A stretch of DNA of 64,000 bases, taken from Asterias amurensis (lineage: Eukaryota; Echinodermata; Asteroidea; Forcipulatida; Asteriidae). Under the pieces are notes generated by a model that saw only the letters and a program-made list of their open reading frames with translations, did no database searches and was not told where the DNA came from. A program made the translations under genes and the position numbers. Position 1 is the first letter of the stretch. Each line of letters begins with the position of its first letter. The stretch covers positions 8,246,001 through 8,310,000 of the forward strand of contig NC_092650.1 in assembly GCF_032118995.1 (NCBI RefSeq), written 5' to 3'. Below are positions 12,775-55,773 of the stretch, one piece after another.

Positions 12775-13004
12775 TTAAACTTTGTCTTCTGGCTGTGGAG
12801 GCTGTGGAGGCTTGTACGTCTTATAGGCGAGCGAAACAAAAACAAGTGTCAGGAGTTTAACAGATACACCCAGTATGACGACTTTAAGGGAAAGATCTGT
12901 ACGATCATGAAACCAACACTGCCCTCTCTCGCCGTTCTCCTCGTGCCAGAGCGTGCAGGTCGAGTCGATGAGTGAACCGAAGATGATCGGTCCGGGAAGA
13001 GATC
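12775..13004 (-). CDS. SLCO: SLCO exon 9: TM11-12 and C-terminus
   Basis: 230 coding bases, acceptor CCGTTTTAG. Encodes SLPGPIIFGSLIDSTC, the conserved proline-glycine motif and acidic cap, a loop, TM12 (VVILGVSVKLLTLVFVSLAY), and a short tail KTYKPPQPPQPEDKV before TAA. The tail ends in -DKV, a possible but weak PDZ ligand. Confidence 0.93.
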
Positions 13005-25000: not shown

Positions 25001-25403
25001 ACCAAACTTCCCAGAGCAATGCAGATTATCCCCACACTAAGAATCCTGGTTTTGTTTGCACTATTTCCGAGATACCCTACGAAGACGATCAACACAGCAG
25101 CCGTTACATCGTAGATAGACGGCAGGAGACCTGTCTGGAATGAGGAGAACTCAAAGCGGCGCTGGAGGCTCGCGAGAGACCCGTTCACAAGTCCATTGAC
25201 GGTCATACTCTGGAAGAAAGCATACGCACACAAGATACAGAGCAGCCATTTTGGATTTGCGAAGCGCTGCAGGAACTTTGGACGCCATGAGAACCACCCG
25301 CACTCCGTGATGACCCGGCGTTCTTAGTCTCTTGCCTATTTCCAGCTTGGTCCCTCAGAGTTTGCAGATCAGACAACTTAATCTCATGATCATTTGTTAT
25401 AGC
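12775..25403 (-). CDS. SLCO: Organic anion transporter family (SLCO/OATP), 9 visible exons
   Basis: A twelve-helix plasma-membrane carrier of the OATP family, which takes up amphipathic organic anions. Exons in coding order are 25403-24744, 24038-23939, 22281-22160, 20675-20412, 18876-18678, 17430-17289, 16397-16201, 15093-15029 and 13004-12775. All junctions are GT-AG and every phase agrees. The OATP signature is clear as DVQWVGAWWLGF in exon 3, and a Kazal-type extracellular loop with ten cysteines spans exons 6 and 7. The total of about 1.98 kb (roughly 660 residues) is normal for the family, and the stop TAA is at 12777-12775. No start codon is visible; it should lie in an exon beyond 25403. 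The first exon needs a frame change upstream of ECGWFSW. The introns are full of M1-M4 elements and SINEs. The subfamily is not assigned. Confidence 0.93.
13160..13432. repeat. tRNA-related SINE, inverted pair
   Basis: Two copies point away from each other. The left is on the minus strand (GGGGATAAAGAATATTAATT near 13192). The right is on the plus strand, with a B-box GGTTCGAATCCC near 13300, then ATGCCTGTGATATTTTTG, CTCGGGAAAGTACTG and a tail AATATTCTTTATCCCCGATG. It lies in the last SLCO intron. Confidence 0.75.
13433..13918. other. Unassigned intron sequence
   Basis: Part of the last SLCO intron. CAAAAACCTCCCGATGCATT and a following CCTCCCGATC form a short direct repeat near 13720-13757; otherwise nothing is recognised. 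Confidence 0.3.
13919..14290. mobile_element. M3 inverted-repeat element, copy a
   Basis: TTAA on both sides (13915-13918 and 14291-14294). Ends AGCCATTGGACACTTTCGG and CCGAAAGTGTCCAATGGCT, with a central CTCGATATCGAG palindrome. Other copies are at 38293 and 45257. Confidence 0.8.
14507..14880. mobile_element. M1 element, copy d
   Basis: GAACACGTTGCCTTGGATCG start and AAGCAACGTGTTTCT end, followed by TTAA at 14881. The left TTAA has decayed. Confidence 0.75.
15029..15093 (-). CDS. SLCO: SLCO exon 8: 65-base exon before TM11
   Basis: Too short to show as an open frame on its own. Acceptor TTTTAAG and donor TTTG/GTAAGT. Encodes CVPDGQQSFALGVYGLMTRV, matching the family motif of proline, serine and SFALG-type residues that precedes LPGPI. 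Phases 2 in and 1 out fit both neighbours exactly. Confidence 0.9.
15190..15440 (-). repeat. tRNA-derived SINE with conserved central core
   Basis: On the minus strand, a B-box GTTCGAGTCCCGG is followed by CACATGTGTCATTGAGCAAG and CCTTCGGATGAGAC, then TCTGTTGGTCCCGTG. This string resembles the core of deuterostome tRNA-derived SINEs. It lies in the SLCO intron between exons 7 and 8. Confidence 0.7.
15609..15955. mobile_element. M14 foldback element
   Basis: Long inverted repeat: ACACAATGTCCACAG and its complement near 15935, and CTCAAAAACTACAGCACCTC near 15833 pairing with the left arm near 15705. The centre is a stem around AAAATTATTTTCATGACATT. Confidence 0.7.
16201..16397 (-). CDS. SLCO: SLCO exon 7: end of Kazal-like loop and TM10
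   Basis: 197 bases, acceptor TTTGTAG and donor CAG/GTAATG. Four more loop cysteines (SNCTC, RCGSYC), then TM10 (MYIFIAFLFLILVSLF). Phase 0 to phase 2. NCT and NDS are possible glycosylation sites. Confidence 0.92.
16400..17288. other. SLCO intron, no element identified
   Basis: Unique-looking AT-rich intron. Two short imperfect direct repeats of AAGGGCACCAAGG occur near 17150 and 17192. Confidence 0.3.
17289..17430 (-). CDS. SLCO: SLCO exon 6: Kazal-like loop, first part
   Basis: 142 bases, acceptor TTCATCAG and donor GAG/GTAAAC. Six cysteines in the typical spacing CNTGCHC, YSPVCGSN, FSPCFAGC. NDT is a possible N-glycosylation site. Phase 2 to phase 0. Confidence 0.92.
17505..17851. mobile_element. 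M4 inverted-repeat element, copy b
   Basis: Ends ATTCATAAATACCT and GGCATTTATGAAT; shares CTATTCCTATTGGTGGAGAG with 10225-10574. Confidence 0.65.
17907..17968. repeat. Strong GC hairpin
   Basis: GTCGTGGCCGTGCGATAAAG pairs with CTTTATCGCACGGCCACGAC, with a loop of about 20 bases. The stem is near-perfect, so it may be a young foldback. It lies in an SLCO intron. Confidence 0.7.
18000..18677. other. SLCO intron between exons 5 and 6
   Basis: A 130-codon open frame on the minus strand covers part of it but lacks any family features. Nothing else is recognised. Confidence 0.3.
18678..18876 (-). CDS. SLCO: SLCO exon 5: TM8-9
   Basis: 199 bases, acceptor AATGAAG and donor AAAG/GTTAGA. Encodes GILVCVAGGGALLVGGWLVK, then LKVPGMLKFIIVANIINGL and the cysteines of CSGFLRC that open the large outer loop, then PLAGVYQQY. 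Phase 1 to phase 2. Confidence 0.9.
19000..19060 (+). repeat. tRNA-like SINE head fragment
   Basis: TAGCTCAGTTGGTAGA matches a tRNA A-box, with GTTCGAATCACAC as a B-box about 15 bases later. The anticodon arm is missing, so this is a SINE fragment and not a tRNA gene. Confidence 0.5.
19061..19811. other. Unassigned intron sequence
   Basis: Part of the SLCO intron between exons 4 and 5. Near 19505, GTAACTCAGCGGTTGGGA weakly resembles another A-box; nothing else is seen. Confidence 0.25.
19812..20117. mobile_element. M1 element, copy e, 5' truncated
   Basis: Central hairpin GGTCGGCCATTTTATGGAGTC with its complement, and the right end GCAACGTGTCCCTT followed by TTAA. The left arm begins inside the family consensus. 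Confidence 0.65.
20412..20675 (-). CDS. SLCO: SLCO exon 4: central loop and TM7
   Basis: 264 bases, acceptor CTGCTAG and donor TTG/GTAAGA. Begins with a charged cytoplasmic loop (TQAIRKERESQAH), then FPSATKILFRNPTFVLLTLG and the helix ending FLPIYLENQFGL. Phase 1 to phase 1. Confidence 0.92.
20849..21018. mobile_element. M2 element, copy b, right half only
   Basis: AAAAACAACGTTACCTCAGAG to GTGTCCAGTGCC with TTAA at 21019. The left half is missing. Confidence 0.65.
21180..21240 (-). pseudogene. Decayed SLCO exon 3 copy (N-terminal half)
   Basis: On the minus strand TTGGTTGGAGCACGTCTGGT and TTTTGTGGTAGC align with the WVGAWWLGFVV part of exon 3, with a one-base deletion in the GAWW codons. 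No usable splice sites are seen. The match is short and imperfect. Confidence 0.4.
21526..21577 (-). pseudogene. Decayed SLCO exon 3 copy (C-terminal half)
   Basis: Encodes FMIALPLTCLLPELPG, against FMIALPLTCFPQELAG in exon 3, and keeps the donor GTAAGATCAT. Homology continues downstream through the intron (ACATCAACACCAAG near 21415), so a genomic segment was duplicated. The 5' half and acceptor are absent. Confidence 0.75.
21637..22016. mobile_element. M2 element, copy c
   Basis: TTAA at 21633-21636, end AGGCAGTGGACAATATTTG, central palindrome around GAATTTGAGGTCTCGAAATC, and right end GTGTCCACTGTCT. It splits the exon 3 duplication. Confidence 0.8.
22160..22281 (-). CDS. SLCO: SLCO exon 3: OATP signature and TM6
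   Basis: 122 bases, acceptor TTCTTAG and donor CTG/GTAAGA. Encodes PTVDSSDVQWVGAWWLGF, which carries the family signature (D-x-x-W-V-G-A-W-W-x-G-F), then TM6 and LPLTCFPQELAG. Enters in phase 2 and leaves in phase 1. Partial decayed copies lie downstream at 21526-21577 and 21180-21240. Confidence 0.93.
22716..23082. mobile_element. M2-variant element, copy d
   Basis: TTAA at 22712-22715 and 23083-23086. The ends AGGGAAGATAAACGTTTGG and TGTACATTCCCT mark a sub-family distinct from typical M2, with centre AAAGACTTCCAGCTAGAAG. Confidence 0.75.
23375..23921. mobile_element. M2 element, copy e, carrying a LINE fragment
   Basis: TTAA at 23371-23374 and 23922-23925, ends AGACACTATTGGTAATTG and CAATAGTGTCCACTACC. 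Its right arm is broken by the insertion at 23699-23863. Confidence 0.8.
23699..23863 (+). mobile_element. 5'-truncated LINE 3' end with 8-bp target duplication
   Basis: 165 bases flanked by AAGTAAGG on both sides (23691-23698 and 23864-23871), inside M2 copy e. One frame reads CGPGRPTKTM, like the GRPxKTW motif near the C-terminus of several non-LTR retrotransposon polymerases. It ends in a GAGT microsatellite tail. The duplication and the tail support target-primed insertion; the exact clade is not assigned. Confidence 0.65.
23939..24038 (-). CDS. SLCO: SLCO exon 2: TM5
   Basis: 100 bases, acceptor CTGACAG and donor AAG/GTAATA. Encodes GILITFVTLGPAVGFVVGG, the conserved fifth helix, then SLNTDFYSSS. 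Enters in phase 1 and leaves in phase 2. Confidence 0.9.
24230..24612. repeat. 145-bp tandem duplication in C-rich sequence
   Basis: The unit from TTCTGCGCCAGAAGAACATT (24318) recurs at 24462, and each ends in CCTCTTGCCCCCC. Long C-runs at about 24233-24257 and 24580-24594 may be unreliable in length. It lies in SLCO intron 1, about 135 bases downstream of exon 1. Confidence 0.7.
24744..25403 (-). CDS. SLCO: SLCO exon 1 (first visible): N-terminus and TM1-4
   Basis: The acceptor is CATTTATGAAACCAG before 25403 and the donor is CTAG/GTATGT. From about 25317 down, the frame reads ECGWFSWRPKFLQRF, then TM1 (WLLCILCAYAFFQSMTV), VNGLVNGSL, TM2, TM3 and TM4, ending DAGVYLG in phase 1. Upstream of ECGW this frame hits TAA at 25326-25324. 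The 5' part of the exon is open in another frame, with a plausible polar N-terminus (NDHEIKLSDLQTLRDQAGN). So either one base is missing (or two added) near 25310-25330, or an unannotated splice joins here. Confidence 0.88.
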
Positions 25404-35156: not shown

Positions 35157-35217
35157 ATGAAATTTACTCTACTTATTACAGTGATTATGTTTCCAATCCT
35201 CGTAACTGCAGGTACCG
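35157..35217 (+). CDS. HYR receptor exon 1: signal peptide
   Basis: Starts ATG at 35157 (context CCACAATGA) and encodes MKFTLLITVIMFPILVTAG, a hydrophobic leader with an A-G cleavage context, then TG at a strong donor GTAAGT. Phase 1 out matches exon 2. Confidence 0.82.
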
Positions 35218-38200
35218 GTAAGTTTTAACCAAAAACATTTTTGTATATTATATATAACGGCTTTTCCTACTGCCCTTTCATGTTCATTGTTGTTGCTCTT
35301 TGTAAATGTAAACAAATACAAGCACTTGTATTAGTCTGTGTGAAACGTTTCTGAATATACAGCCCCATACAGTGCTGAATAGTCAACATTATAAATTTCA
35401 CTCACATTTCACTAGACAAGTTTATAAATTCCATATTCCATTTAGTCGTACAGGCCTGGCCCAAATTACTGTTAAATATTACGGGGGCCTATGCTCTGAA
35501 ACTCGCTCTCCAACTTCAAGCGTCGTCTAATTTTTACATTTTCAAGCGATCATAGTTATAAATCTACTGTAATCCAAACTTATAATTTGATTTAACTTTA
35601 AATGTAACTTATTTAGTAAATGTATATCCTAGTTTTATTTGCTGATGCCGTCTGTCTTTGATATGTTTTACTGGAACAAGCTCCTTCTACACATCCGAGA
35701 CTCTTCCTCGATCAGCTCATTCAAGACTCAACTAAAAACACATCTTTTCAGACAATGTTAAAGCGCTTTGAAACGCTTTTTTGTGGGAAGGCGCTATACA
35801 AATGTTATTTATTAAGGTAATCAATGTGTGCCAAAGAGGTTTTTAACTAGTGGTTTAAACCCAACGAGGCCTGGTTCTTGATAATTTTACCGAGACGAAG
35901 TGGAGGTAAATTATCAAGAACCAGGCCCGTCTCGGTAAAACTATCAAGAACCAGGCTTCGTTGGGTTTAAACCACTAGTTGAAAACCTCTTCACCACACA
36001 TTGATTACCCAACTGGCTGAACTGTATTATTTTGGAGAATGTTTATATTATTGGTAAAATTTGGTAAATAATACATTGAAGTACGAATCAAATTCAATCG
36101 CAAATGGGACGGTTTTAACGAAGGGAAGCCATAAGTTGGTCACGTAATAACTGAAGGCCGATATCAGATGCAACTGTGTCCGTCATGCAATACTGTCCGG
36201 GGCTATGCAAAAACCGTCCGGCGGACATGTACAAGACTGTACATGTATGTGCGCGCGTAAGAGAGCGTGCATGCACTAAACCTATGTATATGCAGCGTGA
36301 ATATTCACGTATTGATTGAAGCGTATACCCATGTCATTCCTTTTCCCATGTCATTCATGACATGCACTTAGCTTTAAAAAAAAATGGCGAACGTGTTCCG
36401 TAGACCAAGGGCGTTTAACTTACTGCAAGGACGGTTTTGCACGAGGGCGGACACAGATGCATATGCAAATGTGTCCGGGCGGCACAATTGCATTATTCAG
36501 AAGCGTCCGGACGGACACAATTGCATATGCAAAACCGTCCGGCGGACGTTATTGCAAATGCAATATTGTCCTCCATCGCATAGAGTACAACTGAAACAAT
36601 CTCTGAATCGGCAATTAGTACTGTACACACCATAAACCACACCACAACAGTTTCAACAAAGTCGTTAAAATTTTAGTTTTTAATTCGGGATTATTTGTGA
36701 CGTTCATAGGTGCTTATTCATTAAGGCAAACCAAAATTTGAAAATTTCAACTTTGATTTGATCCCTCTGGCTAATCGTCAGTTTGAACGGCTTCACTGTC
36801 ACCTATAACCTTGCTCAAGGCAGTTGAATTATTCACTCCGGAAAAAAAACCACCGCTGAAAACCCCCACCCCTATACACTGTGCGTACAATGTGTGTACC
36901 GGTAACCACATCGCACGACACGACGCCCCCGTACGCTATCCGCATGCGTCGGCCACTATATCCCATTCTCACAGCACCTTACGAAGATCATGCCGATCAC
37001 CCCGATCTGAAAAAAAAAAATCAAATCGGGGCACAATCGCCGTCAAAATCCACAAATTTTGCAAATTACAGACTAAATCACGACTGTACTGCGATGCGTC
37101 TGCGTCCAAAGCGTTGCTGACTCGATGTCACTACGGTTACACTTAGACCAATGCCGACCAAGCAGTCGTTTCTACTTCGTTGCCGCTGCGACGTACGGGA
37201 TCATACTATGCTGTTACACAAACCTAGGAGACTGTAAGACGATACCACACGTGGTGCTGACCATATTACGCTTCTAGTATGCTTCTAGTACGACTTGTGG
37301 CGATGTCTAATACCCCAATGACACAGCACTATGACCTTAAGAAGATCGTGCCAATCACCCCGATCTCAAAAAAATATCAAGTCGGGGTGTGATAGCCGTC
37401 AAAATCAAGCAAATTTGGGGGAGCTTGTAGCTTCCCGACCTAGGAGATCCCAACCCGACCCGACCACGCTCATGGAGATCCTCCGACGTTTGGCCCACGA
37501 TTGGTCCGCGATTGGTCACGCTCTCGGCCCTTTTTCCAGCGTGTAGAAGCGACGTCTATGTGTAAACATGTTCAAAATAAGTGTTGGGGCAGCTTGCAGC
37601 TTCCCGACTTAGGAGATCCCACCCTGTCCATAATGATCCCCCAACGTTTGGCCAACGATTGGTCCGCGATTGACCACCCTCTCGGCCATTTTTCCACCGC
37701 AGTAGAAGCGGCGTCTATGTGTGACCGAGGTCCCCTTTCTCGACAACGTTTTATTACCAGAGACCACACCAATGACATGTGCTTTCTTATTTGAACCCCC
37801 CCCCCCCCCACGTTGTTACCGGGTTTGGTTTCGAAATGCTCGCCTCGGGGTTATTTTGAACGTTTTCAGTTCGTCCCGCTTGACTATTTTTCTGTGCTTG
37901 TCTTCTAAAAAAAATCATATGATGCACATAATGTTTTTTACCGTCGAAACGTTTTTTACGGGGTCACATGGTTCTCAATTTCTGGTCTGTTTGCACAGGG
38001 CTACATGTATAATTTCACTTCCCTCTTACACACAAAAACAAAAAATGAAAAGGCGACGTGGAAAAAATGAAAACGAGACGGAAAAATTAAAACGCGACGG
38101 AAACAATGAAAAGGCGACCGGAACAAAAATTAAAACGCGACGATTTATTTTTTTTCAAAAGAGTGGCACATGCGGAACACCATACCAACCCCTTCCACTT

Positions 38201-41200
38201 TTATACTCCCAGCTGTAGTTGTAGTTCTTGAATGTAAGAGGAACTTGTCAATGTTTGGCGAAACCTTTATTTGATTTCACTTTCTTTCTTAAACAGCTCA
38301 TTGGACACTTTCGGTATTAAGTATTCTCCAAAGGCCCACACTGCGTATATCACAACTGATATTAAAAAATAACAAACCTGTGAAAATTTAGGCTCAATCG
38401 GTCATCGGAGTCGGGAGAAAATAATGGGGAAAACCCATCCTTGTTTCCGCACGTCGACAACGAGAATTGATAATTGTTGTAATGTTTTTCTCGAAAAGTA
38501 AAGCGTTTCATGGAAGTATATTTCAAGAGAAGGCTTTCACTATTACCTTCTGTAAATCCTGTAAGTTATTTGTAAGTCTGTGAACTTTTATTTTCTGTGC
38601 CGAAAGTGTATAATGGCTTTAATTGTAAAGCTCCCTTCAGGTGTTCGGGTGTAGCCCAATCGTTTCAGACAGGCGCTCCGCCGAACCAAATTCTGAATTA
38701 AGTACATACAAATTTCGAAGTCTGAAACAGATTTGAGTGACTTGGCGCGCTTGAAGTCGAAAGATCGACTGTTGCAGTTGATCGGAACGACTCTGGAGCG
38801 CCCTATAGTTTCAAACCTCGATCTATGATGAGACGTGAACCAATGTAAACCAACATGATAGTTATTTGGGTCGAACACCGAGTGGCTTTATTTAAGGGAC
38901 ACACCGGCTCACCGTTTACGCAACTTAGGGCTGTAGAATTATAAATAATGTTTTTATAGATGGTTGCTGTAAAAAAAACATCAAAATGTCACGTAATTAG
39001 CGAAAAATGATTAAAAAAACCAAAAGCGGTGAAAGGCCTGCGTGTACGTGTTTCCAGCCGTTGCAACTGTCAAATCTTCATGACATCGTCGCACAATGAT
39101 GTAATGAGACTGGTGCTTTGTTTATAGCAACGTAATACTACGACGCAGCATAAGGATCCAGTCTATCCATAAATTATAAACAACCAGCATATACGGATCA
39201 GGCAAATCCTTCGACGATGGAGGTATTCGTGCTTCGACGTACATCCAAAGACCGTCACGAAGAACACAAAAAACTAACCCAGAATATGATGGAACAGTGA
39301 CAAGTAAATAAAGCCTTCCTGGCACAAACTAGGCCTACTACTGCATAGCCATGATGCAGTTTGGACTGCAATCGTGACGTACATGCTCCCGACGCGCTAC
39401 TCCTAGAGAACTGTTTCGGTCTCGTCCGGCTATCGTCTCCCACAACGGGAGACGATAGTCGGACGAAACCGAAATAGTTCTAGGAGTACCGACGTGCCAG
39501 GACCCAATTTCATAATGCCTGTAGGCCTATAGAGCCACAGAAATGTGCTGAGCACAAAATAGTACTGCATAGCAGAAACTGATCCAGCCAAATTTTAACT
39601 AAGTTTGAAATACTTTCCCGAGTTACTGAGTATACAGTGCTACACACATCGGTGTATATGGGTAAAAACCAAAAATTAATATTCTTTATCCCCGATGCAA
39701 ATTTACCATCTATTAAGTTTGAAATGTTGTGAACTTGTGGCTGGTGCACGACTAAATTTTTGAATAGTAAAGAAATTTTATTAGCAGTATTTTCTGCTAC
39801 ACAGATGAAACTGATCAATGGGCCCTGTTATTCAAAGTGAAACATTTTTTAATCTCCGGGGGTGGGGGAGGGAATCGTGAAGGATTCAAAAGCGTCCTTG
39901 TGAGAATGTGTTTTGAAACGTAAGCGTAGCTGCAAATTTGAAACGTAAGCCTAGCTTGACTCGGGATTGAAAGCGTATTTTTTTATTATAGATTAACGAA
40001 CCTAAACGATGTATATGGATTGTATAAGCGTAGCTGAGTAGCTGAGTAGCTTGGAACGTAACCATATCTTTTGGAGCGTAAGCATATCTTGGAACGCAGG
40101 CGTAGCTGGGTATCTTCGAACGTAAACGCAGCTGCGTATGGAACGTAAGCGTAACTTGACTCAGGATTGAAAGCGTACCTTTTGTTATTATAGCGTAACT
40201 TGAGAAGGAATGTAAGCAAAACTTGGAATATAAGCTTAGCTTGGAACGTCATATATTGGAAGGTAAGCGTAGCTTGGTATATTGGAACGTACACGTAGCT
40301 GCATGTGGAACATAAGCGTAGCTTGACTCGGGCTTGAAACGTACCTTTTGATAATATAGCGTAACTTGAAGGAACGTAAGCGTAGCTGAGTAGCTGCGTA
40401 GCTTGGAACGTAACCAAATAATACCTCAACAATCTCAAAAATAACACTACCCTTCATTCACAGAATTAAAACATATTTTTTTGACAAAATTATGCTTTGA
40501 GGGAATTTGTTTAAATCGTTTTTTTATTCAACCTTTTATTCAAAATTATTATTCACCTGTTCTTTTTCCGATCGGGAGCTCCGTTTTCTTTTAATCGTTT
40601 TTTTCTTCTTCATAAAACATTTTTTAACCTACTCACACAATAACACAGTCAACATAACAAAATGCGGTATTCCTACATTTTGACATCATCAATCTTGTTT
40701 ATTGTTACCTGAAAACTCCTAGCAAAAAGAAATTAGGAGCCATGAAACAAAACAGAGCATAATATTGGAACGTTGCCATCATAAACTAGACATTAAGTGT
40801 TTGTGAACAAACACGAAGCTGTTCCGTGTTGTTTTGCTTGGATTATGTGCTTCATTGCCCAAGGAATGTATAACTGAAAAAAGGTTTCAAAAAAGTTGTT
40901 TAGCTCTTGTTATAAGGTCTTACTTCCCGATTGACCCGTTAGTAAAGGTCAACATGGGCCCACAGCTACCAAAGATTAATCTGCAATGCCAAAGAGTCTA
41001 TAAAAAATCGGTTGGGTAGATCTTGATATATAGTCCCACTTCCGGCTGACCCAGAAGTAGAAGTCAACTTAGGGTCACAGTTTTCCCAAAGCTAATATTT
41101 ATTGCCTAAGAGTCTATAACTGAAGTTTGAACATTAGCTTTGTACTTTTCTAGATATGGGCTCACTTCCGGTTGACCTTTACTTCCTTGAATGCCCAAGG

Positions 41201-44200
41201 AGTCTATAACTAAATAAAAATTGAAAATCTGTTGTATAGTTCTTGAGATATGGTCCTACTTCCGGTTGACCAGGAAGTCGGGGTCAACTTGAGGTCACGG
41301 TTTTTCAAAGTTAATATTTTATGCCTAAGGAATTTATAACTGAAAAAAATTTGAAAATCTGCTGTATAGTTCTTGAGATATGGTCCCACTTCCGGTTGAC
41401 GCGGAAGTAGACGTCAACTTGAGGTCATAGGTTTTTTTCAAATTAATCTCCAACCCCCAAGGAGTCTTTAAGAACAAACAGTTGAAAAGTCGACCGTGAA
41501 GTTCTTGAGATATGATTCTGCAAAGATTTCCTAATTAATATGCAAATGAGGGTCACTGGTGGTTAATTAATAAAGAATTTTAATATGTTTTATGATAGGA
41601 ATTAAGCTAAACATCCTAAAGCTTCAATTTGATATTATTTTACGTGTTTAAAAACACATAATTAATCTGTAGGATACTCCTTTATTTTCCTATACTCCTG
41701 TCGATAGGGGGCGCTCTTATGAGACATTTCAACTGCACGATTTCTGCACCGTAATGTCTGTATTTGACTCTGTATTTGTATGTGTACGTCGCAGAGACCA
41801 AAACTGTCATAAAATGTCAAGCTATAACTTCCCCTATAGAACACGGCCCAGTTTTATGGCTCTGTCTGCTTCAACCAAACTCTGCCCATTTACTGTACCG
41901 ACAACCATTCTCTGCTTACTGTGCAAGCGCTGAAATATCTGTGCTAGTTCAAAGCAAAAATTACATATGTGGGTTTCCCTGCCCACAAGCAAAAATATTC
42001 CTGCTTTGCTGTGAAATATGCTTTATAAAAGCGATAATATCTGCGCTTCTGATCTGTCAATTCTTTGTTTACGCAGTCAAGCAGAGTCAAATTGGACCAG
42101 TTGCACAAGATTTCCCCTCATGTACTAACAATCTTTTTTGACTTTACATGTTTGAAGTGTAGGCCTTAACAAACCTACTTACAGGGCAAAATTACGTGGT
42201 ACTCATTACCACCAAAGTCTGCGCTTACGATCACCATTTTCCGCTTACTGTGATGTGCAAGCTTGGAAAATAATATGCGAGCTTGGAAGCACACAAACAA
42301 AAGAAATCCCTGCTATAAGCAGTCTTTTTGCTTTACGTAAGCGCAGAATTCACTGCTTCTGCAGAGCACTGAATCTTTTTCATTAAGCGAGTTCCCATCA
42401 TGCCTCGACTAGTCGCACGTCAAACCTAACTACGACACTTGTCGAGATAAAATGCAGATTCTCAAGATTTGTGCCGCTATGTGACGCAAAGGCAATATTA
42501 ATTTTGTTGCGAATGGGTGACTAGTGAATTTTACTACTCAACTAGTCGAACCTCAAACCTAACTACGACACTTGTCGAGGTAAAATACGGATTCTCAAGA
42601 TTTGTACCGCTATGTGCCGCAAGGGCAATATTAATTATGTTGCGAATAGTAGTAAGCAACACAACTGGTTCACCAAACAGGTAGTCGGACAAATTTTGTA
42701 GGCAATGTGTGGCAGGATTAAAACGGAGTAGAGAAAAACAGTAGTCACGACTCGAACTAGAGAGGTTTCGCAGAGTCACCGATACTCTTACGTGAACGGA
42801 TACGTCATAATACGTCATCACTTTTGAGGTCCATGTGACGTTTAACCATTGTATACAAGTTAGAAAAATTGCGCAAAACGGGAATCTGTTGCCATACACG
42901 TAAGTAAACAACGAGTATTTTGTTCATGTTTGTGTAGCGGAGTGTTATTTTTTAATGTACCAGGTTTTCACCATATCTATTAGAGGTATCATACATGAAT
43001 GTAGTTGGACATTTGTTGACCACCATGCTTCAGAAAAAGAGAAATGGCGATTGTTCATGGGTGCAACCCATAATAGCGCCCTCTTGAGCGAAACAAAACT
43101 ACACATCACTTGAGGCGAACGCGTACGGTTCGATATCTGTATGCGAATTCGTATCCGCGACTAAGCGAAACCTCTCTAATAATTTGTAGTTGCGACTTTA
43201 ACACTAAAGCACACTAGTCGCCCCGGCCTACTTTTGTAGTAAAGCAAAGCATGTAAAGCATGATTCCTGCGAATGCAAATCAAATTTTTAAGTCACTGTT
43301 TTCGCAGTGAAATTTTCGCAGAAGTTGAGCACAATGGGCAATTCCCTTTGTGACGCAATGAAATTCGCATCGCACGAAGCATTCGCAGTAAGCATGAACC
43401 GGGCTTTACACGGACTCTTTGAATGCGAATCTTACGTTAGATTTTTACCATTATTTACATTTTGTAGCGATAATTTGAAACCATGATCTTTTTCGTCAAG
43501 AACTCGTTAATAATTTTGTTTAAAAAAAAATTTAAATTTGGTTTGGTAAGTTACTTTTAGACGGCTAGAGAAGTAAAACTAGCCCGGAACTAGCACGTGA
43601 TTGATTGTACCACTTTTTGGTTAGAACAATCACGTGACCTTCGTTTTTGTTTTAAAATGGTCAAAAACGGCATAATTTGATGTTTTTTTAGGGACTGTTC
43701 TTCTTCATTCCTTGAAGACCGTTGAATTCATTTTTTAGTCTATTTCGTAGCCCAAATAGCCCAATTCAGCCGGTGTGTCCCTTTAAGACTGGTTTATCAA
43801 GATGGACTCTGTCATAAAGTAATCTTATCGATGTCAAGCTTCCATCAAATTGAAACTTGACATGCGTATACTTAGAATATAAATAGCAGATGCTGAGTAA
43901 CCAAAAATTCAGCTAATGGGAAAGTTGTCACAAAAATTACGTTGTTATTAGTGCAGAGTTATAAGTGGAGATCTAGTCAACTGGAACGTACATGACTGAA
44001 GTCGCACTAATCGTCCTAAGTTAGGATGAGTTACTGGTCTTAACTAAGGGTCAGTCCTATCTCTTTGCATTGCCCAGGACTAGTCCTTAGTCAGGACTAC
44101 CTGTGTGAAATCCACCCCTGGCCTAGATCACTTCTCCAGTATAGCATGAGTAATGATTGGTGTTTTTTATAAACTTAACTTCTTCTCTTTTTTTCAGTGG

Positions 44201-47200
44201 ATACCATACCTCCTACTATCAACTGTCCAGAAGCCATAACTCAGTCAATGCCTTTTGGACAATCATTTGCTCCTGTTTCGTGGACAATTCCAACTGCTTC
44301 GGACAATTCTGGGGTGGCTCCTACTGTGACTGCAAATCCATCGTCAACCCCTGGCCAACAGTTTCAACTAGGGACAACCACTATCACCTACACAGCAACA
44401 GGTGCAGCCTCCAATAGTGCTTCCTGTACATTCACGGTTACCCTTACACAAGAAGGTAAAAGACAGGTCATAGTTCAAACTAAGAAACCATATCGCAAAT
44501 AATACAACTGAGAGTTTGGTTTATGTGTGTATATTGCAAAATGTCAGTCCATTGCATTTAAATATTGACTGGTTTGAGTGCTTCGAATCCCGAGGTGATC
44601 TTTGGCAGATTCTGTTAACCCCTGCACGAGATAAATTCCGCTAAGTCTCACCTGCCTCGCAGATACCGACTTCCTTGGTGCGTGCCGTAACGTCTGCGAG
44701 CGTCTTGCCCGATCCATGCCCAATGTAACCTTGATTCAAGCCCCGTTCACGTGCGAGAGGTACCCCCAAGCAAATCGCGCCAACTAGCAAACAAGTCGTA
44801 GAGTGCACGCTCACAGTCAAAATGTGGTCTCGCGTGCGGAACAGGTTGGGGCGATGCAGAGCATCACAAAACAATAGTTTTCTGGCGATGGAACGGGATT
44901 GGGGCTTCAGTCAGTCTATGCAAACCTATATCGTGCCACTTTTTTCCTGTCTGTCCCCGGGCCCTAGCCTGGGTCTGGCTCAAGGCTACTGCAATGAGCC
45001 TCATGGCCAGCCTTTTTGACATTATGCCTTGCATCAGACCGCCGACTACAAATAATTGCAGCTCCTTCTATAGCGACACTCATCTGGTGTCGGCCATGCC
45101 TTGGCTGGGTCCACACACCTTCGTTGGTGGATGGGCCAATCTAACCTTTCAGCCAGCCCTGACCATGATTGTGTGTGCCCCCCCGTTGAGCTCTATTGCT
45201 TGTCAAAGTTGCTAGTCTGGTCCCCTGACCAAAGATTCCTTGACGTCGCTTGTTAAAGCCATTGGACCCTTTCGGTTCAGTAAAAAAATAAAAGTTCACA
45301 GATTTACAAATAACTTACAGGGTTTACAGAAGGCAATGGTGAAAGACTTCTCTTGAAATATTATTCCATGAAATGCTTTACTTTTTGAGATAACAGCAAA
45401 ACAATATAAATTCTCGTTAACGAGAATTACGGATTTATTTTAAACACATGTCATGACACGGCGAAACGCGCGGAAACAAGGGTGGGTTTTTCCGTTGTTT
45501 TCTCCCGACTCCGATGACCGATTGAGCCTAAATTTTCACTGGTTTGTTATTTGATATAGAAGTTGTGGTACACAAAGTGTAGGCCTTGGACAACACTGTT
45601 TACCGAAAGGGTCCAATGGCTTTAAGAATCTTAGGTCAGGTATCACCCACGGTTAAAAATAGAGCATGACGCAATTTTTCAAGGTCGGGGGTCATCTCCA
45701 GGGAAACCATGTCTGCACTAGTTGCGATAACGGAACCCTCCTCCCGACGGCCGCCAGGCCGGAGGGTTACGAGATTATTTTGATCGGCAAAATGACAATC
45801 TGGTTTAACACGTTTAATTTCGACAGCTAGTCACCAGATTTGCCCCACTTTCAAAAACCATGACACTTAATCCTCAATGTCTTATGAACACTCAAGTCAA
45901 AAGATACAAAACACCTTTGAGAAAATATTGTTGAAGAAAAAGGACAAAAACTTACCAGATGTCGGAGCGATTTCCCAGATTTATATTTTGAACTTGTCGC
46001 ATCGCTTTGCAAACGCTTTATTTAGGCACAACGCCTGCATTGGCTTTAAATAATAATAGCTGGCATAAAAACTCCTGGATCTACGGCCGACAGGACTGAC
46101 ATTATAATTCCATACCGAACATCAACGATACTGTCCGAATATTGACGACAACACGTTCGGAACATTTCAGATAACTTCGAAAAAGGAGGAATTTCCTCCT
46201 TTTTGGTCACGTGATTTTGGGTGATACCGGACCCTAAATTCGACAGAGCCTAGTCGGAGATTTTTGGGTCTGGGAACCAGACTACGAAGTTGCGAGATAA
46301 CATTGGAAGAAAAAACACCCTTGTCACACAAAAATTACTTCTTTCTCGAAAACTACGTTACTTCAGAGGGAGCCGTTTCTCACAAAGTTTTATACTAATC
46401 AACAGCTCTCCATTACTCGTTACCAAGTAAGTTTTTACGCTAACAGTTAGTTTTAGTAATTACAAATAGTGCACTTAAGCTAAGTGCATTCAAGCTAAAA
46501 ACATCCTTGCTTAGTTAAACCAGAATACCGGCCAAGACTCCACTCAAATATTTTGCTAAGTAAAGAACAGTAAAATGGCCCCCGATGTGATACTGTAACA
46601 TACGCACTAACAGCAGAAGTGCAAGATGTTGAGACTGCATGCATCATATTAAAAGGGTACCGACGAGTTCTTTAACGGTCGTTTAAAACCGGCAGGGTCG
46701 TTGCCGAGTGATAAAGAACCACACTTCCTTTGTGGGGGTAATCTGTGAAAGAATGACAGTAGCAAGTTCTTTATAATTTACCGAGCTAGCCTTTACCTTA
46801 AACTGGTCAAAATGAATATTAAGATGAGTTTTTGTTTGAAGTCAGCTAGTCACAATCTATGATTTATAATTTCCACCTAGAGAGAAGACCTACATCATTT
46901 CACCCAGACAAACTGGCGGCATGACAAAAAGAGTGTCAGAAACGCTTTTTACGTAGAAGCAGTAAAGTTGGGCAGAGTCTTCAATATTATGCCAAATTGT
47001 TGGATTTTGACGGCAATCATATCCCAACTTGATAACTTTTTTTAAGATCGGGGTGATTGGCATGCTCTTCGTAAGGTCGTAGTGCTGTGTGAACGGGGTA
47101 TTGTTGATAGCATTAGGAATTTGTATAATGTAATCGTCTTGCCAGTATAGGTGACAGGTGTCGAACCCGTAAGTTTAATTGTTGCAAGAATGTGGTAAAC

Positions 47201-50157
47201 TCAACCCTCAAAAATATCCCCGTTGCTTTCAAAAGCACTGGACACTATTGGTAATTACTCGAAATATTTGCTTGCATAAAACCTTACTTCGTAACAAGTA
47301 ATGGGGAGCTGTTGATATAAAACATTATGAGAAACGGCTCCCTCTCGAGTAAATGTAGTTTTCGAGAAAAAAGGTAGTTTTCAACGAATTTGATTTCGTG
47401 ACCTCAGAATTAGATTTTTAGGTCTCGAAATAAAGCATCTGAAACCACACAACTTCGTGTGACAATGGTGTTTTTCTTCCATTATTTTCTCGCAACTTCG
47501 AAAACCAACAATAATATTGAGTTCAAATGTTCACAGGTTTGTTATTTTGTGCACATTATGTTGAAATACACCAAGTGAGAAGACTGGTCTTCGACAATTA
47601 CCAATAGTGTCCAGTGCATGTAAACATCCGAGTACCAGTCGACTGGTTGTTTCTCAACGACTGCAGTCGTTGTGTGTACAAGATATGTGGAGCAGAAAGA
47701 CCGCGTTAAATCTGCAATTCATTATGCATTCAATCAATATCTTTTAAGAAGAACATTTTTAAAATAGTAACTTTAGTTTTACGACGGCCTCTTGTCGTGG
47801 GAAAAAAAAGTCGGGACACAAAACTGCCGAATATCCTTCAGAATTTTTTTGAACTATATAGCCCGGTTCATACTTCATGCGAACGCGAATTTGACGTGAG
47901 TTTGACATCACACCCTCCTTTCGCAGCGATTATTCGCAAGGGAGTAGAGCAGAGGGCAACTGCTGCGAATCGTTCGTTGCGAATTTGTGACGTCAAGATT
48001 CGCTTCGCATTCGCATTCGCAGGAAGTATGAACCGGGCTTACAGTGAATTATAGAAAATAAATCTGCCAAAGGAACAACCAAAGTGAACTACACAGCAAC
48101 AGATGGAGCTGGCAATGTGGCCAATTGTTCATTCAATGTCACTATTACACAAGAAGGTAGGAGAAGGTTCAGAGATCAATTGAAGGAAAGTCTTGAAGAT
48201 CAAAATAATTTACTCGATTACCCGTGATAGTATATCCATTACAAGATAAAATGTAAATAATAGACAATAATAGTCCTTTGTTTGTTTCTGTATTCAGGGC
48301 TGAAACACGGTCACATGGGGTGAACTTGTCAAGTGATCGCGGGCGCAAGTGTTGCGTGAACTAGTGCCCGAGCGGGCATTAGTCTCTAAATGTTTGACTA
48401 GTTATAGTGCCTTCTGTTGACGTGAACCGTGAACGGCAACTCAAAAACTTCCTCTCTTTTCCAAGTGTCTTTTTCTGATTTGGCCTCTGAGTGACCAGAA
48501 GAGGGATCCATTTCTCTCGGTCCTCTTTTGGTCACTCAAAGTCCATTGGGGAATATAGTATATAAATGTTGACTGCTACGGGGGTACCATTACTATTTAT
48601 CGGCCCAAGGTGATGTCAAAACCATGACTATGCCCGAAACTGTGCCTCAATTATTTAGCAGTAAATTCTTCTTTTTTATACGGAATAAAGATTATTCGAA
48701 TCAACATTGACACGGAACGCTAGTCGTACATTAAACATACTGCACGCACGAGCGACCTAAGTTTCGACCGTTTTTTTCAAGGTGGGCACATCGATTGACT
48801 ATGCCCCGGGCTTAGTTAACTATGACGTCATCTTGACAAAAAAGAGGGGAACCGCTATGTCAATGGCTCCATTTTTAACCAGTCAGATTAGAGGATTCTA
48901 TATTATGAGGTATAGCCTCAAATATGTGTATAATATTAAACCGGCTTTTGATGGTAGGTTTGGGTTTCCGATAAGTAACTGATAAACTTCCACTCTTCTC
49001 CAAATCACAGACAAACCCCAAGATACCAACGTACTAATTTGCAATACCACGGACAATAGATGTTTGGTGTACGCATCCATGTCACTAGGCCTACTGGTTG
49101 TGACTTTGCTGGCAATCGTATTCTGCGTTCTGTACATAAGGTAAAGTGTGATATCAACATTTATAACACACCTCCTGCTTGTTCTGTATAATGGTTGGCT
49201 AAAACACAGTCACATGGGATGAACTAATAAAGTCTAGTGATCGCGCGCGCGTGTTTGCGGGAACTTGTTCCCGAGCGGGCACTAGTCTTTAAAAATAGTG
49301 CCCGGTCACAGCGCCCTCTCTTGACTTGAACCGTGAACAACAACTACAAAACTTCGTTTCTTTTCCAGAATTCTGTTCTCATTTCACATTTAAGATAAAA
49401 CACATATTGACTGGCATAATTCGGTAACTAGTGTACGTCTATTCCCCCTCGGGCCTGTGAGTGACCAAAAGAGGGGCCTATTTCCCTCGGCCTTTGGCCT
49501 ATGGAAATAGGTCGCTCTTCTGGCAAATCAAAGTCCCTCGGGGGAATAGACGGACTAGTTACCCCATTGCCAGTCAATATGTGTATATGATTTGTCCTCC
49601 ATGAGCCTCTGGTAAAAAACACAAAGCTGAATTATATAAGACTTTATAGAATAACTGGTATCATTCAGCATTTCCGTCGTATCGGAAAACAGGTTGGTTT
49701 AGTTGTTATTAAAACCAGAGAATTTAAATTTAAAACGGCTCATCCCAAACCGTAGAGAAAACAGGTTAGTTTTATTAATAACACCAGAGAGTTTAAAATG
49801 AAAACTGCATATCCCCAAAACAAGAGGCGTTGATCATTAAATGATTCTTGTGAATATCTCCCCCAACACAGGGCAAGAAGGATGTTGCATGATGGTGCCA
49901 GTCGTTCAATGATTTCACTTCATCCTGTGCACCAATGCAACTCTATCGCAGCCAATGACAGCGGAATCTCGAAAGGTAACCCGAAGATTGGCACTGCGCA
50001 GAAACAGTTGCCCCCTGAGACCGAGTATCTCACCCCATCTACGCCGCAACCACCAATTCCACCTCCAAAGCCTGATTATCTCCAAGACCACGCCATGGAA
50101 AACGCGTACGACTACATAGACAACTACGGCTACATGTGCTTTGAGGTTAAGAATTAA
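35157..50157 (+). CDS. HYR-domain type I transmembrane receptor-like protein, 5 exons
   Basis: Exons are 35157-35217, 44198-44455, 48055-48156, 49011-49140 and 49872-50157, summing to 837 bases (278 residues). All junctions are GT-AG with phases 1,1,1,2. Residues 1-18 or so are a signal peptide. About 22-105 form a HYR (hyalin repeat) domain, an immunoglobulin-like fold used in adhesion. About 107-140 are only the second half of another HYR domain. A short juxtamembrane stretch with NTT follows, then a helix at about 159-183. The 95-residue tail has PPIPPPKP and tyrosines in YLTP, DYL and YGYM (a YxxM form). I infer a cell-surface adhesion or immune-type receptor; the ligand is unknown. Exon 3 is symmetric and could be skipped. 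Intron 1 is 9 kb, over half of it one TTAA element. Confidence 0.85.
35818..36007. mobile_element. M5 foldback element, intact copy
   Basis: TAATCAATGTGTG to CACACATTGATTA, with long arms carrying ACTAGTGGTTTAAACCCAAC. The centre holds several GAGACGAAG and GAACCAGGC repeats. Lies in HYR receptor intron 1. Confidence 0.75.
36176..36575. repeat. CCGGACGGAC-type palindromic minisatellite
   Basis: The motifs AAAACCGTCCGGCGGAC and TTGCATATGCAA alternate several times (near 36210, 36420 and 36510-36550) with spacer sequence. Each motif is itself nearly palindromic. Confidence 0.65.
36576..36929. other. Unassigned intron sequence
   Basis: Part of HYR receptor intron 1; nothing recognised. Confidence 0.25.
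36930..37790. repeat. R2 dispersed repeat, copies in tandem
   Basis: CAGCACCTTACGAAGATCAT near 36972 and CAGCACTATGACCTTAAGAA near 37324 repeat, as do CTTCCCGACCTAGGAGATCC near 37431 and GCTTCCCGACTTAGGAGATC near 37599, each followed by a GATTGGTCCGCGATTG block. The same blocks occur at 9639-10170. Confidence 0.65.
38035..38145. repeat. About 22-bp minisatellite
   Basis: Units of AAAATGAAAAGGCGACG type with AACGCGACGG variants, roughly five copies. The open frame over it is a by-product. Confidence 0.65.
38293..38618. mobile_element. M3 element, copy b
   Basis: TTAA at 38289-38292 and 38619-38622. Ends CTCATTGGACACTTTCGG and CCGAAAGTGTATAATGGC. The interior is the reverse orientation of copy a. 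Confidence 0.75.
39391..39497. repeat. Near-perfect hairpin
   Basis: CTACTCCTAGAGAACTGTTT and CGTCCGGCTATCGTCTCCC pair with the right arm across the 4-base loop near CACAACG; only a few mismatches. Confidence 0.75.
39608..39712 (+). repeat. tRNA-related SINE, 3' part
   Basis: ATACTTTCCCGAGTTACTGA to TATTCTTTATCCCCGATGC; the head is missing. Confidence 0.6.
39905..40415. repeat. Minisatellite inside the long P element
   Basis: The reverse complement of the 6.4-7.0 kb array: GGAACGTAAGCGTAGCTG and CTTGGAACGTAACCATA recur many times. It stays open on the minus strand over about 150 codons only because of the unit sequence. Confidence 0.8.
40850..41530. repeat. Roughly 130-bp tandem repeat, about 6 units
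   Basis: Units contain CACTTCCGGTTGACC, GGTCAACTTGAGGTCA, CCAAGGAGTCTATAACTGAA and GTATAGTTCTTGAGATATGG. Landmarks recur near 40858, 40987, 41103, 41192, 41323 and 41453. Confidence 0.8.
41700..42400. other. Low-information part of the P element
   Basis: Repeated short motifs such as CTGCTTACTGTG and AAGCGCAGA suggest an old inverted repeat. The 125-codon open frame at 41764 has no family features. Confidence 0.3.
42405..42655. repeat. 130-bp direct duplication
   Basis: The block TCAAACCTAACTACGACACT to GCAATATTAATT occurs at 42420-42505 and again at 42550-42637 with few changes. Confidence 0.7.
42760..43176. mobile_element. M13 inverted-repeat element with TA duplication
   Basis: Ends GAGAGGTTTCGC and GCGAAACCTCTC, TA on each side (42758-42759 and 43177-43178), about 417 bases. 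The TA site is Tc1/mariner-like. Nested in the long P element. Confidence 0.65.
43240..43407. mobile_element. M8-like element, divergent copy
   Basis: The right end GCATTCGCAGTAAGCATGAA with CCGGGCTT matches the M8 hairpin at 47860-48039; the left end is unclear. Confidence 0.5.
44000..44120. mobile_element. M6 palindrome, copy b
   Basis: CGTCCTAAGTTAGGATGAG with CCCAGGACTAGTCCTTAGTC and the right end GTGAAATCCACCCCTG. Lies just upstream of the HYR exon. Confidence 0.6.
44198..44455 (+). CDS. HYR receptor exon 2: complete HYR domain
   Basis: 258 bases after the acceptor CTCTTTTTTTCAG, donor GAAG/GTAAAA. Reads DTIPPTINCPEAI, then VSWTIPTASDNSG, PGQQFQLGTTTITYTATG and CTFTVTL, the hallmark order of the HYR family (PP-I-x-C-P, W-x-x-P-x-A-x-D-N-S, F-x-x-G-x-T-x-x-Y-x-A, C-x-F-x-V). 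Two cysteines in the expected places. Phase 1 to 1. Confidence 0.95.
44640..45240. other. GC-rich block, unassigned
   Basis: Base composition differs from the neighbours. On the minus strand a frame reads TTCLLVGAICLGVPLARERG and ends at a possible donor GCAG/GTGAGA near 44650, which resembles a leader exon but lacks an ATG. On the plus strand a 73-codon frame runs 44994-45215. I recognise neither. Confidence 0.3.
45257..45621. mobile_element. M3 element, copy c
   Basis: TTAA at 45253-45256 and 45622-45625, ends AGCCATTGGACCCTTTCGG and CCGAAAGGGTCCAATGGCT, central CTCGTTAACGAG palindrome. Confidence 0.8.
45631..46237. mobile_element. M12 inverted-repeat element
   Basis: Ends TTAGGTCAGGTATCACCCA and TGGGTGATACCGGACCCTAA. 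About 607 bases, and no other copy in the window. It lies directly next to M3 copy c. Confidence 0.65.
46292..46477. mobile_element. M2 element, copy f, internally deleted
   Basis: GAAGTTGCGAGATAACATTG joins directly to AAAAATTACTTCTTTCTCG, so the central hairpin is lost. Confidence 0.6.
46478..47228. other. Unassigned intron sequence with an R2 fragment
   Basis: Near 47043-47105, GATCGGGGTGATTGGCATGC and GTAGTGCTGTGTGAACGGGG are an inverted piece of the R2 repeat. Otherwise nothing is recognised. Confidence 0.4.
47229..47620. mobile_element. M2 element, copy g
   Basis: AAAGCACTGGACACTATTGG to CCAATAGTGTCCAGTGC; the flanking TTAA has decayed. Confidence 0.75.
47860..48039. mobile_element. 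M8 hairpin element abutting an exon
   Basis: AGCCCGGTTCATACTTC at the left and GAAGTATGAACCGGGCT at the right. The inner arms repeat TTCGCATTCGCA and complements. It ends 15 bases before the half-HYR exon. Confidence 0.8.
48055..48156 (+). CDS. HYR receptor exon 3: half HYR domain
   Basis: 102 bases encoding ENKSAKGTTKVNYTATDGAG and NVANCSFNVTITQE, the C-terminal half of a HYR domain with an NCS sequon. The donor GAAG/GTAGGA is good. The acceptor is uncertain: AATTATAG is weak and follows within 16 bases of an M8 hairpin element at 47860-48039. The N-terminal half of the domain is not found upstream. The frame is open and in phase 1, so the exon may be used, or it may be a remnant that splicing skips. 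Confidence 0.7.
48290..48545. repeat. Intron repeat after exon 3 (paired with 49185)
   Basis: AAACACGGTCACATGGGGTGAA, TGCCCGAGCGGGCATTAGTC, TGACGTGAACCGTGAAC and GAGTGACCAGAAGAGG appear in the same order as at 49200-49470. Confidence 0.7.
49011..49140 (+). CDS. HYR receptor exon 4: transmembrane segment
   Basis: 130 bases, acceptor CCAAATCACAG and donor AAG/GTAAAG. Encodes DKPQDTNVLICNTTDNRC, then a hydrophobic run MSLGLLVVTLLAIVFCVLY and an arginine stop-transfer. Phase 1 to phase 2. Confidence 0.88.
49185..49565. repeat. Intron repeat after exon 4 (paired with 48290)
   Basis: AAACACAGTCACATGGGATGAA, CCCGAGCGGGCACTAGTC, TTGAACCGTGAACAAC, then GAGTGACCAAAAGAGGGG and a CCTCGGCCTTTGG stem. 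It is a diverged copy of the block after exon 3. Confidence 0.7.
49872..50157 (+). CDS. HYR receptor exon 5: cytoplasmic tail
   Basis: 286 bases after CCCCAACACAG, ending TAA. Starts RARRML, a basic stop-transfer, and carries TEYLTP, a proline run QPPIPPPKP (SH3-type), DYLQDH, AYDYIDNYGYMCF and the end EVKN. No kinase or phosphatase domain. Confidence 0.88.
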
Positions 50158-50527: not shown

Positions 50528-51270
50528 TAGACCGATTGTTGCGCGACCATTGTGATCACGTGACCTGAGATGGGTGTTGAAACTCAATCCACTTTAATTT
50601 CAGTAAATAATACTTCTAACTCAAAACAAATCCCTGTTGAATAAAATGTATACTGTGACATTGATTTGAATCACATTTTACAGCTTCATAAGAACAATAT
50701 CATTCTTTTGAGCTTTAAATGGTTTGAGTAGAGTACGTTAATTAGCGACACTCGCAACGGACAGCTCTCAGTGCGTCCGCGGTGGTTTTTGCACAGTGTA
50801 CGGCCTTAAATCAAAGCGAAGTGAGGCTGTAGCTGTGCCATGCCAAGGAGATTGAAGCTGTAAGACTCGAGCCGGTATAGCTACTCTTTCTTATTAACTA
50901 ATGTTAGGGTGAAAATAAGAGAATTTGCAGCTCATTCAGTGCATTTTCATTTCTCAGCAAAATCATTTTGGGGGCAGTTCATAGAAAATCCGTGCAGTAA
51001 AATGTATAATGGTTTGATAATCTCAGATATTTTCCTTGTTGCTGAAACTGTCTTTACCAATTACTTGGACCGATAAGGTCTAGGGTTCAAACTCCGGAAT
51101 AAACTATAGAGTATTCTTTAGAGGTTTCGAGAAAAGAAATCTATTAAACACTCAAATGTAATAAAAATCATGTACTTTTAACGCACTTTGATTAGGAGGA
51201 CGCCGTGTTTGTTGATGTTCAACAGTCACCCATCCCAGGTCACATGACCGAGCTTGCGCAATCGGTCTTT
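50528..51270. mobile_element. Candidate inverted-repeat element, about 740 bp
   Basis: The left end AGACCGATTGTTGCGC with CACGTGACCTGAGATGGGTG pairs with the right end around CACCCATCCCAGGTCACATG and GCGCAATCGGTCTT. Confidence 0.55.
50640..50645 (+). terminator. Candidate poly(A) signal for the HYR receptor
   Basis: AATAAA 483 bases past the stop codon, the first clear one on this strand. It falls inside the inverted-repeat element above. Confidence 0.35.
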
Positions 51271-54805: not shown

Positions 54806-54971
54806 TTAAGCCATGTACTCAAGTTTGGCCTGGAATGTGTCGTAGTCCAATTCGTGTTTTTCATCAGCTACGAACTCCAGACCAATTCCAGCAAATTCTT
54901 TTTTAATTGTTTCTTTGGCTGATGAGTATATCATCTTGTTTCTGCTTCCGGCATAATCATCATCATTAGAC
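54806..54971 (-). CDS. CFL: Cofilin exon 3: C-terminus
   Basis: 166 bases after GTTTTTGCAG, ending TAA at 54808-54806. Encodes SNDDDYAGSRNKMIYSSAKE, the long actin-binding helix, IKKEFAGIGLEF, and the closing helix TFQAKLEYMA. Confidence 0.9.
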
Positions 54972-55440
54972 CTGCAAAAACAAAAGTTTGGTTATCGCAT
55001 CATATTATTTGCCAGTGATCGACCTTTTACATGGTTGCATTGAACACTTAGTATGAAGAGAAAGTGGTTTTAACAATGTCGGGATTTAATTGAGTTTTTT
55101 TTTTAAATCGGGAAATAAATTTCCTATCAATTATTTTGTAAAAATTGTAATATTAGTGTACGTACCAGAAAATGAAAGCAACTTTCTGTATCTCACGACC
55201 TATCCTGTCCATGAAATGAAAGTTAAAGAGAACATATCGCGGTTCAGAGGGTAGTGAGTCCTTGATCTCATTGAATTGATCTTGATCTGCACCTAGTCCT
55301 CTTGGGCGACCACTTCTTATATCCACCACAATCTCCTCGTTATTCTCTAGTTTGAAAGTAACCCACTTGATGGTCTTCCAGTGTTTCATGTCATTAAATA
55401 CAACACCAACTTCAGGATTCACTTCGACTCCAGACAAGTC
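54806..55440 (-). CDS. CFL: ADF/cofilin family protein, 2 visible exons
   Basis: Cytoplasmic actin-binding protein that severs and depolymerises actin filaments. Exons 55440-55166 and 54971-54806 join TG/G to rebuild the W of AFIFW (phase 2), giving 146 residues, the usual ADF domain length. It reads SGVEVNPEV, FNDMK, RYVLFNFHF, KVAFIFW, KMIYSSAKETIKKEF and FQAKLEYMA. The serine in DLSGV matches the LIM-kinase site of cofilins. No ATG is in the exon: in animals the start ATG is normally alone in a separate first exon joined in phase 0, and this exon is also phase 0 at its start. That first exon is not identified; the candidate upstream leader exon is at 57354-57541. Confidence 0.9.
55166..55440 (-). 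CDS. CFL: Cofilin exon 2: ADF domain core
   Basis: 275 bases, acceptor CTGATTTCAG and donor TG/GTACGT. Begins DLSGVEVNPEVGVVFNDMK and ends AFIF plus two bases of W. Confidence 0.9.
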
Positions 55441-55773
55441 CTGAAATCAGAAGAAGAAGAAAAGGGTAAGGACAAAGCTTTGTTCTTTGCTCACATCCTT
55501 AGTATTGAGCCTCACTGTTTTCCTGGCATTCATTAAACAAACACTGATTAGCTGTTTGAAGTGTGGTTTTACATCGATTGTCACAAATCAAATAGTATCA
55601 CCGGTTGTCATGACAATTTTTAATTTGTTTTAGTATTTAACTGGGGTTTTCAAGTGGTCAAATTCTAAATCGACAATGAAATACTCAAATGTCGAAATTA
55701 GAAGAAAAAAACATTAACTTAATATCTCTCAGAAAATCATAGGGCTACGGCCTTGTCGTATGCGGGGACTTAA

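Follow-up and report, generated by a model that had tools for sequence, protein, structure and literature searches.

Does a single locus of the starfish Asterias amurensis encode a compact membrane receptor built on HYR domains? The question arises from a 64,000-nucleotide stretch of contig NC_092650.1 (the window; all positions are counted from its first letter). In an initial annotation, five exon-like stretches of the forward strand had been read as a signal peptide, one full HYR domain, half a HYR domain, one membrane helix and a 95-residue tail. Our best reading of this DNA is a compact, membrane-anchored HYR protein, a candidate receptor or docking protein of type I with one HYR domain.

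Exon structure of the locus

The features of the locus and its surroundings are collected in Table 1. All five stretches were found and formed, when joined, one open frame of 278 residues. The phases agreed at every junction and GT/AG borders were present in all four introns, in line with what had been proposed.

Table 1. Features of the HYR locus and its neighbours in the 64-kb window. Acceptor and donor columns give percentile ranks; lengths are in bases.
Feature	Position	Strand	Length	Acceptor	Donor	Description
Exon 1	35157-35217	+	61		99.85	Carries the start codon and encodes the signal peptide MKFTLLITVIMFPILVTAG; phase 1 at its end; donor CCG/GTAAGT
Exon 2	44198-44455	+	258	99.9	96.4	One complete HYR domain, phase 1-1; Pfam HYR, AlphaFold2 model
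'Exon 3'	48055-48156	+	102	55.7	99.0	3' part of a second HYR domain, Pfam HYR 57-81; probably a relic or a rarely used cassette
Exon 4	49011-49140	+	130	98.0	97.9	Short stalk (two Cys, one N-glycosylation sequon), then membrane helix; phase 1 to 2
Exon 5	49872-50157	+	286	95.1		Tail with PPIPPPKP, YLTP, YLQD, YDYI and YGYM; stop codon
Possible polyadenylation signal	50640-50645	+				First AATAAA 3' of the stop codon; six-base match only
MITE-like palindromic element	47860-48039	.	180			Both ends carry a perfect 17-bp inverted repeat; 70.9% over 189 columns when compared with itself
OATP/SLCO transporter gene	12778-25323	-				Five exon-like frames; Pfam, four above cut-off, 23938-24174 below
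Cofilin_ADF	54809-55446	-				Two exon-like frames; Pfam profile positions 5-78 and 82-125 of 125

Rounded weights were used to score the splice sites, and each site was given a percentile rank among all 7895 GTs or all 6765 AGs of both strands. First exons of the exon 1 type (phase 1, signal-peptide-like, with a donor as good) occurred once on the forward and once on the reverse strand, and were absent from each of 10 simulated 64-kb strands. When phase 1-2 membrane exons of 60-300 bases with splice sites at least equal to the weakest accepted ones were counted, exon 4 was the only one on the forward strand and none was present on the reverse strand. Since the thresholds were drawn from the exons themselves after these had been seen, the uniqueness of exons 1 and 4 is somewhat favoured. 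Apart from a shorter form of exon 2, the region between exons 1 and 4 contained no additional phase 1-1 exon (60-600 bases) whose splice sites were as good. Terminal exons that stay open over at least 90 residues were present five times on the two strands (two forward, three reverse, exon 5 included), and exon 5 by itself is therefore not remarkable. It is supported by its place after exon 4 and by the exon 4/exon 5 junction, which creates the basic stop-transfer run IRARR after the helix.

The coding potential was analysed with a codon-usage test trained on 506 codons from two neighbour genes. Open stretches scoring as high amounted to 10.9% for exon 4, 32.7% for exon 5 and 52.7% for exon 2. 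Because exon 2, a sure HYR exon and hence the positive control, scored at background, the test had no power.

Exons 1, 2, 4 and 5 follow each other in matching phase, and their products are ordered along the locus as signal peptide, domain, helix, basic run and tail. These four exons give good support to a compact single-pass membrane protein with a HYR domain. The link to exon 1 crosses a repeat-rich intron of about 9 kb and depends on the splice and signal-peptide scores. We consider it moderately likely that the gene consists of exons 1, 2, 4 and 5 and encodes a type I membrane protein of 244 residues. With the same confidence, one Ig-like HYR domain would follow the signal peptide, and a stalk of some 24 residues, which holds a Cys pair and a single glycosylation site, would complete the ectodomain; one helix would then lead into a tail about 95 residues long. 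This estimate applies to the four-exon gene model alone.

The HYR domain of exon 2

The joined protein was compared with the Pfam families. It matched HYR (PF02494) with 102.4 bits and an E value of 1.8e-29 (cut-off 21.7), and the best stretch, residues 21-102, covered profile positions 1-80 of 81, so the full HYR domain assigned to exon 2 was confirmed. HYR was the sole family above the cut-off; eight families were returned up to E 10, with filters that drop most weak matches.

When exon 2 was modelled by AlphaFold2 with 35 sequences, the predicted fold was a complete Ig-like beta sandwich filling the exon, with a mean pLDDT of 93.1. The model thus has the Ig-like beta-sandwich fold by which a HYR domain is recognised. 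Folding from the single sequence was poor (pLDDT 57.5), and the value of 93.1 was reached when 34 of 57 bacterial loci were added. These loci came from a comparison of exon 2 with genome contigs that gave at least 592 pattern matches at at least 57 loci, all bacterial, and they served the HYR alignment only. Strongly conserved positions of the bacterial HYR set were C22 (118 of 135), C37 (131 of 135), D68 (131 of 135) and G71 (115 of 135); exon 2 has none of these four residues. Among the 50 matches listed for each fold comparison, no HYR-named chain was found, from which its absence does not follow. The three sequence matches in the PDB (best E 0.49) were dopamine and serotonin receptor fusions with cytochrome b562 and were rejected as chance.

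Further HYR exons in the 64-kb window were not detected by tblastn, where the remaining matches of the HYR region had E values of 3 or higher. The reading frame of exon 2 stays open for 15 codons beyond the donor up to a stop codon (44198-44502, forward strand; GKRQVIVQTKKPYRK). Retention of this intron would therefore yield a soluble HYR protein.

The truncated HYR stretch next to a mobile element

The initial annotation had placed half a HYR domain in a third exon. Tested alone, this stretch matched Pfam HYR with 29.8 bits (cut-off 21.7) at profile positions 57-81 of 81 only. It lacks the first strands of the HYR fold and holds just the last strands of the exon 2 model. The sequence of the half domain is real, whereas its status as an exon is put in doubt by the acceptor, which ranks at the 55.7th percentile of the 6765 AGs, is of random grade and has no pyrimidine tract. 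An alternative in-phase acceptor at 48073 scored worse (23.4th percentile). The donor is good, at the 99.0th percentile.

Exon 3 and exon 2 are identical at 62 of 86 coding bases and, in the intron past the donor, at 16 of 23 bases. Of 28 codons in the alignment, 12 were the same, 5 differed silently and 11 changed the residue. The likeness of both the exon and the flanking intron suggests a tandem duplication of the exon together with its flank. Upstream of the exon 3 stretch the likeness ends, and 15 bases separate exon 3 from the MITE-like palindromic element. Both ends of the element fit exactly a 17-bp pattern that was taken from one end, and a third copy of this end, with 2 mismatches, is located at 43389-43405. 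The first half of the second HYR domain was not found within the 64-kb window.

From its sequence, exon 3 is probably a relic beside a mobile element. The half domain may be the stump of a second, formerly tandem HYR exon that was shortened at the insertion of the element, and it would mostly be skipped in splicing. Since exons 2 and 3 are both phase 1-1, skipping preserves the frame and gives 244 instead of 278 residues. The ectodomain has four cysteines without exon 3, two in exon 2 and two in the stalk, whereas its inclusion would raise the number to five and leave an odd cysteine. Exon 3 carries four sequons. It also retains D68, G71 and N72 of the consensus; among these three, exon 2 has N72 only. 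If exon 3 is dead, it therefore died recently, or it is perhaps used at times; these kept residues and the good donor argue somewhat against a long-dead exon. Because exon 3 resembles the remnant of a second HYR exon adjoining a mobile element, an ectodomain with a single HYR domain is likelier than one with one and a half. Such a half exon would provide a clear case, at this locus, of a repeat-domain exon cut beside a mobile element.

The membrane helix and the cytoplasmic tail

The single membrane helix that had been assigned to exon 4 was recovered as a hydrophobic stretch with a mean of 2.76 over 19 residues. The tail of 95 residues was found as described, with 94 residues lying wholly in exon 5 and one arginine split by the intron, and with PPIPPPKP and YGYM present. 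No recognised enzyme domain occurs in the tail. Pfam gave no kinase family for the 278-residue protein, and the stop codon follows the 95-residue tail.

The tail contains six tyrosines, five of them within 20 residues; among 20000 shuffles, 2.3% reach such a clustering. A single class II SH3 pattern was found (chance 11.3% of shuffled tails), together with one YxxM (23.7%) and three Yxx[LIVMF] sites (7.8% of the shuffles reach three). The double YxY[ILMV] occurred in 0.08% of the shuffles, for a pattern that was named after the sequence had been seen. The pattern scan of the tail gave no ITAM, ITIM, NPxY, PPxY, YxN or class I SH3 site. Since the SH3, YxxM and Yxx[LIVMF] sites are within reach of chance, we infer the signalling role rather than read it directly. 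The description of the tail as signalling-type is accordingly reasonable but weak, as about 11% of shuffled tails have the SH3 and about 24% the YxxM pattern.

Two families were tried for the helix and tail and rejected. The LAT family gave 12.0 bits with exons 4 and 5 (E 0.18, cut-off 27), and its ectodomain has just a few residues, while the ectodomain here has about 110 even without exon 3 (86 from exon 2 plus the 24-residue stalk). WBP-1 family members carry a PPxY motif. The match of exons 4 and 5 to WBP-1 (18.3 bits, E 0.0037; E 0.016 with the joined protein) was rejected because the score is under the cut-off of 28.1 and PPxY is missing. A comparison of the tail from exons 4 and 5 with viral contigs gave 12 pattern matches and no relative.

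Relation to known HYR proteins

HYR domains had been described in the initial annotation as known mostly from large extracellular proteins. This is a fair statement. SVEP1/polydom is described as a large multidomain secreted protein with HYR (PMC12549020), and EBR1 as a large multidomain protein with HYR repeats and no predicted membrane helix (PMC8403831). Both have the HYR domain in common with the present protein and differ in being large and multidomain (PMC8403831, PMC12549020). However, membrane-anchored HYR proteins are also in print. The putative egg receptor EBR1_5 of strongylocentrotid sea urchins is a protein of 1243 residues with seven HYR domains, three of which are under positive selection, together with a SEA domain and a membrane helix (PMC5521101). 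HYR domains and a transmembrane domain are common to both proteins, but the starfish locus has a single complete HYR domain in place of seven, no SEA, and Tyr/Pro motifs in its tail (PMC5521101). No SEA domain was among the Pfam matches up to E 10, and the several HYR domains that mark EBR1_5-like proteins were not found in the window.

Choanoflagellate receptor tyrosine kinases are a further comparison. RTKC8 has about 1487 residues with a Cys-rich region, four HYR domains, a kinase domain and C-terminal tail tyrosines (PMC10263333), and in RTKB2 HYR is accompanied by Cys-rich, SCR and EGF modules as well as by a kinase domain (PMC3584944). The HYR domain and one membrane helix are shared with both, and the tail tyrosines with RTKC8; in contrast to their multidomain ectodomains and kinases, the protein described here has no kinase domain (PMC3584944, PMC10263333). 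Given EBR1_5 and the choanoflagellate kinases, the present protein appears as a compact variant of membrane-anchored HYR proteins.

Among the literature matches listed, comprising titles and the beginnings of abstracts and covering few subscription papers, a compact receptor that combines HYR with a docking tail did not appear. The parts of the protein are familiar; their combination, as read from the exons, is probably new. If made as read, it would be the smallest membrane-anchored HYR architecture known to us, in a small published sample. A matrix-type domain would then stand by itself on a receptor that has a docking tail, and the protein would offer a simple system for asking what a single HYR domain binds.

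CD28-like and LAT-like Ig-type receptors and adaptors have a short ectodomain, one helix and a non-enzymatic tail with tyrosine and SH3 motifs. Their working principle is alike, but no sequence relation was found and a HYR domain takes the place of IgV.

Proposed working and alternative readings

We propose that the HYR domain would have its binding partner on another cell or within the extracellular matrix. Clustering might then allow a cytoplasmic tyrosine kinase to phosphorylate the clustered tail tyrosines YDYIDNYGYM, on which SH2 proteins would dock, and PPIPPPKP may recruit an SH3 protein. The docking role of the tail, for which the five of six tyrosines within 20 residues and the double YxY[ILMV] were counted, is quite possible, though we put it a little below an even chance. 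The same gene model also allows an adhesion or cargo receptor, in which YDYI and YGYM would be YxxPhi signals for endocytic sorting and the proline run a cytoskeletal or endocytic SH3 site. The three Yxx[LIVMF] sites and the lack of ITAM and ITIM are consistent with this, but YxxPhi is a loose motif and the tail residues fit docking equally well, so that the data do not separate the two. We hold the adhesion or cargo function to be somewhat unlikely, in an estimate that overlaps with that of the four-exon gene model.

The gene model itself has two competitors. With exon 3 spliced in, a protein of 278 residues would carry, next to the full HYR domain, a glycosylated spacer of 34 residues supplied by the half domain, and the odd cysteine could pair between two molecules to form a disulphide-linked dimer. 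The fitting phases, the GT/AG borders, the open frame with its 29.8-bit match above the cut-off, D68/G71/N72, the four sequons and the 99.0th-percentile donor agree with such a protein. It is nevertheless unlikely in our view, as the 55.7th-percentile acceptor without a pyrimidine tract, the adjoining MITE-like element and the restriction to the last strands of the modelled fold speak against it. It is less probable still that there is not one gene, either because exon 1, exon 2 and exons 4-5 are parts of separate transcripts or because a larger HYR gene has decayed and left a fragment here. The truncated second HYR exon, the 9-kb repeat-rich intron 1, the uninformative codon test with its exon 2 control at background and the divergence of exon 2 at strongly conserved positions would fit this. 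It is opposed by the four phase-matched exons with high splice ranks, whose products run from the signal peptide through the domain, the helix and the basic run to the tail, and by the lack of another HYR exon in 64 kb.

Taken together, we prefer the compact membrane protein encoded by exons 1, 2, 4 and 5; of the compact HYR receptor proposed initially, the ectodomain with one and a half HYR domains gives way to one with a single domain. A wider view would place the protein in a family of minimal receptors for signalling that belongs to this animal lineage. One HYR domain would be used there in place of the vertebrate IgV, and the non-enzymatic tail would combine an SH3 site with a tandem YxYPhi box. 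Such a family would be an independently assembled counterpart of CD28/LAT-type docking, derived from an EBR1_5-like adhesion receptor that was shortened by the loss of HYR exons, partly via the insertion of a mobile element. We regard this view as speculative and doubtful.

Neighbouring genes and repeats

Ten open frames of the surroundings were submitted to Pfam, of which three gave no match. The OATP and cofilin/ADF neighbours lie on the opposite strand, so neither is a likely source of exons 1 to 5. A full-length match to the U1 spliceosomal RNA (135 bits) was present at 9343-9507 on the forward strand and may be a gene or a dispersed copy.

Several repeats were observed in the window. A dispersed repeat of about 390 bases at 47225-47626 has full or partial copies near 8.0, 21.8, 23.5, 52.9, 55.9, 56.3, 61.8 and 62.8 kb, which are about 78-81% alike and of mixed orientation. 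The introns flanking exon 4 contain a 170-base repeat (48298-48463 and 49197-49367) in the same orientation, 78% alike. Palindromic elements with 78-84% self-complementarity are located in the introns of the gene at 35816-36009, 39395-39491 and 49400-49584. The region 39908-40419 is rich in repeats with units like GGAACGTAAGCGTAGCT and has an inverted counterpart at about 6.1-7.0 kb.
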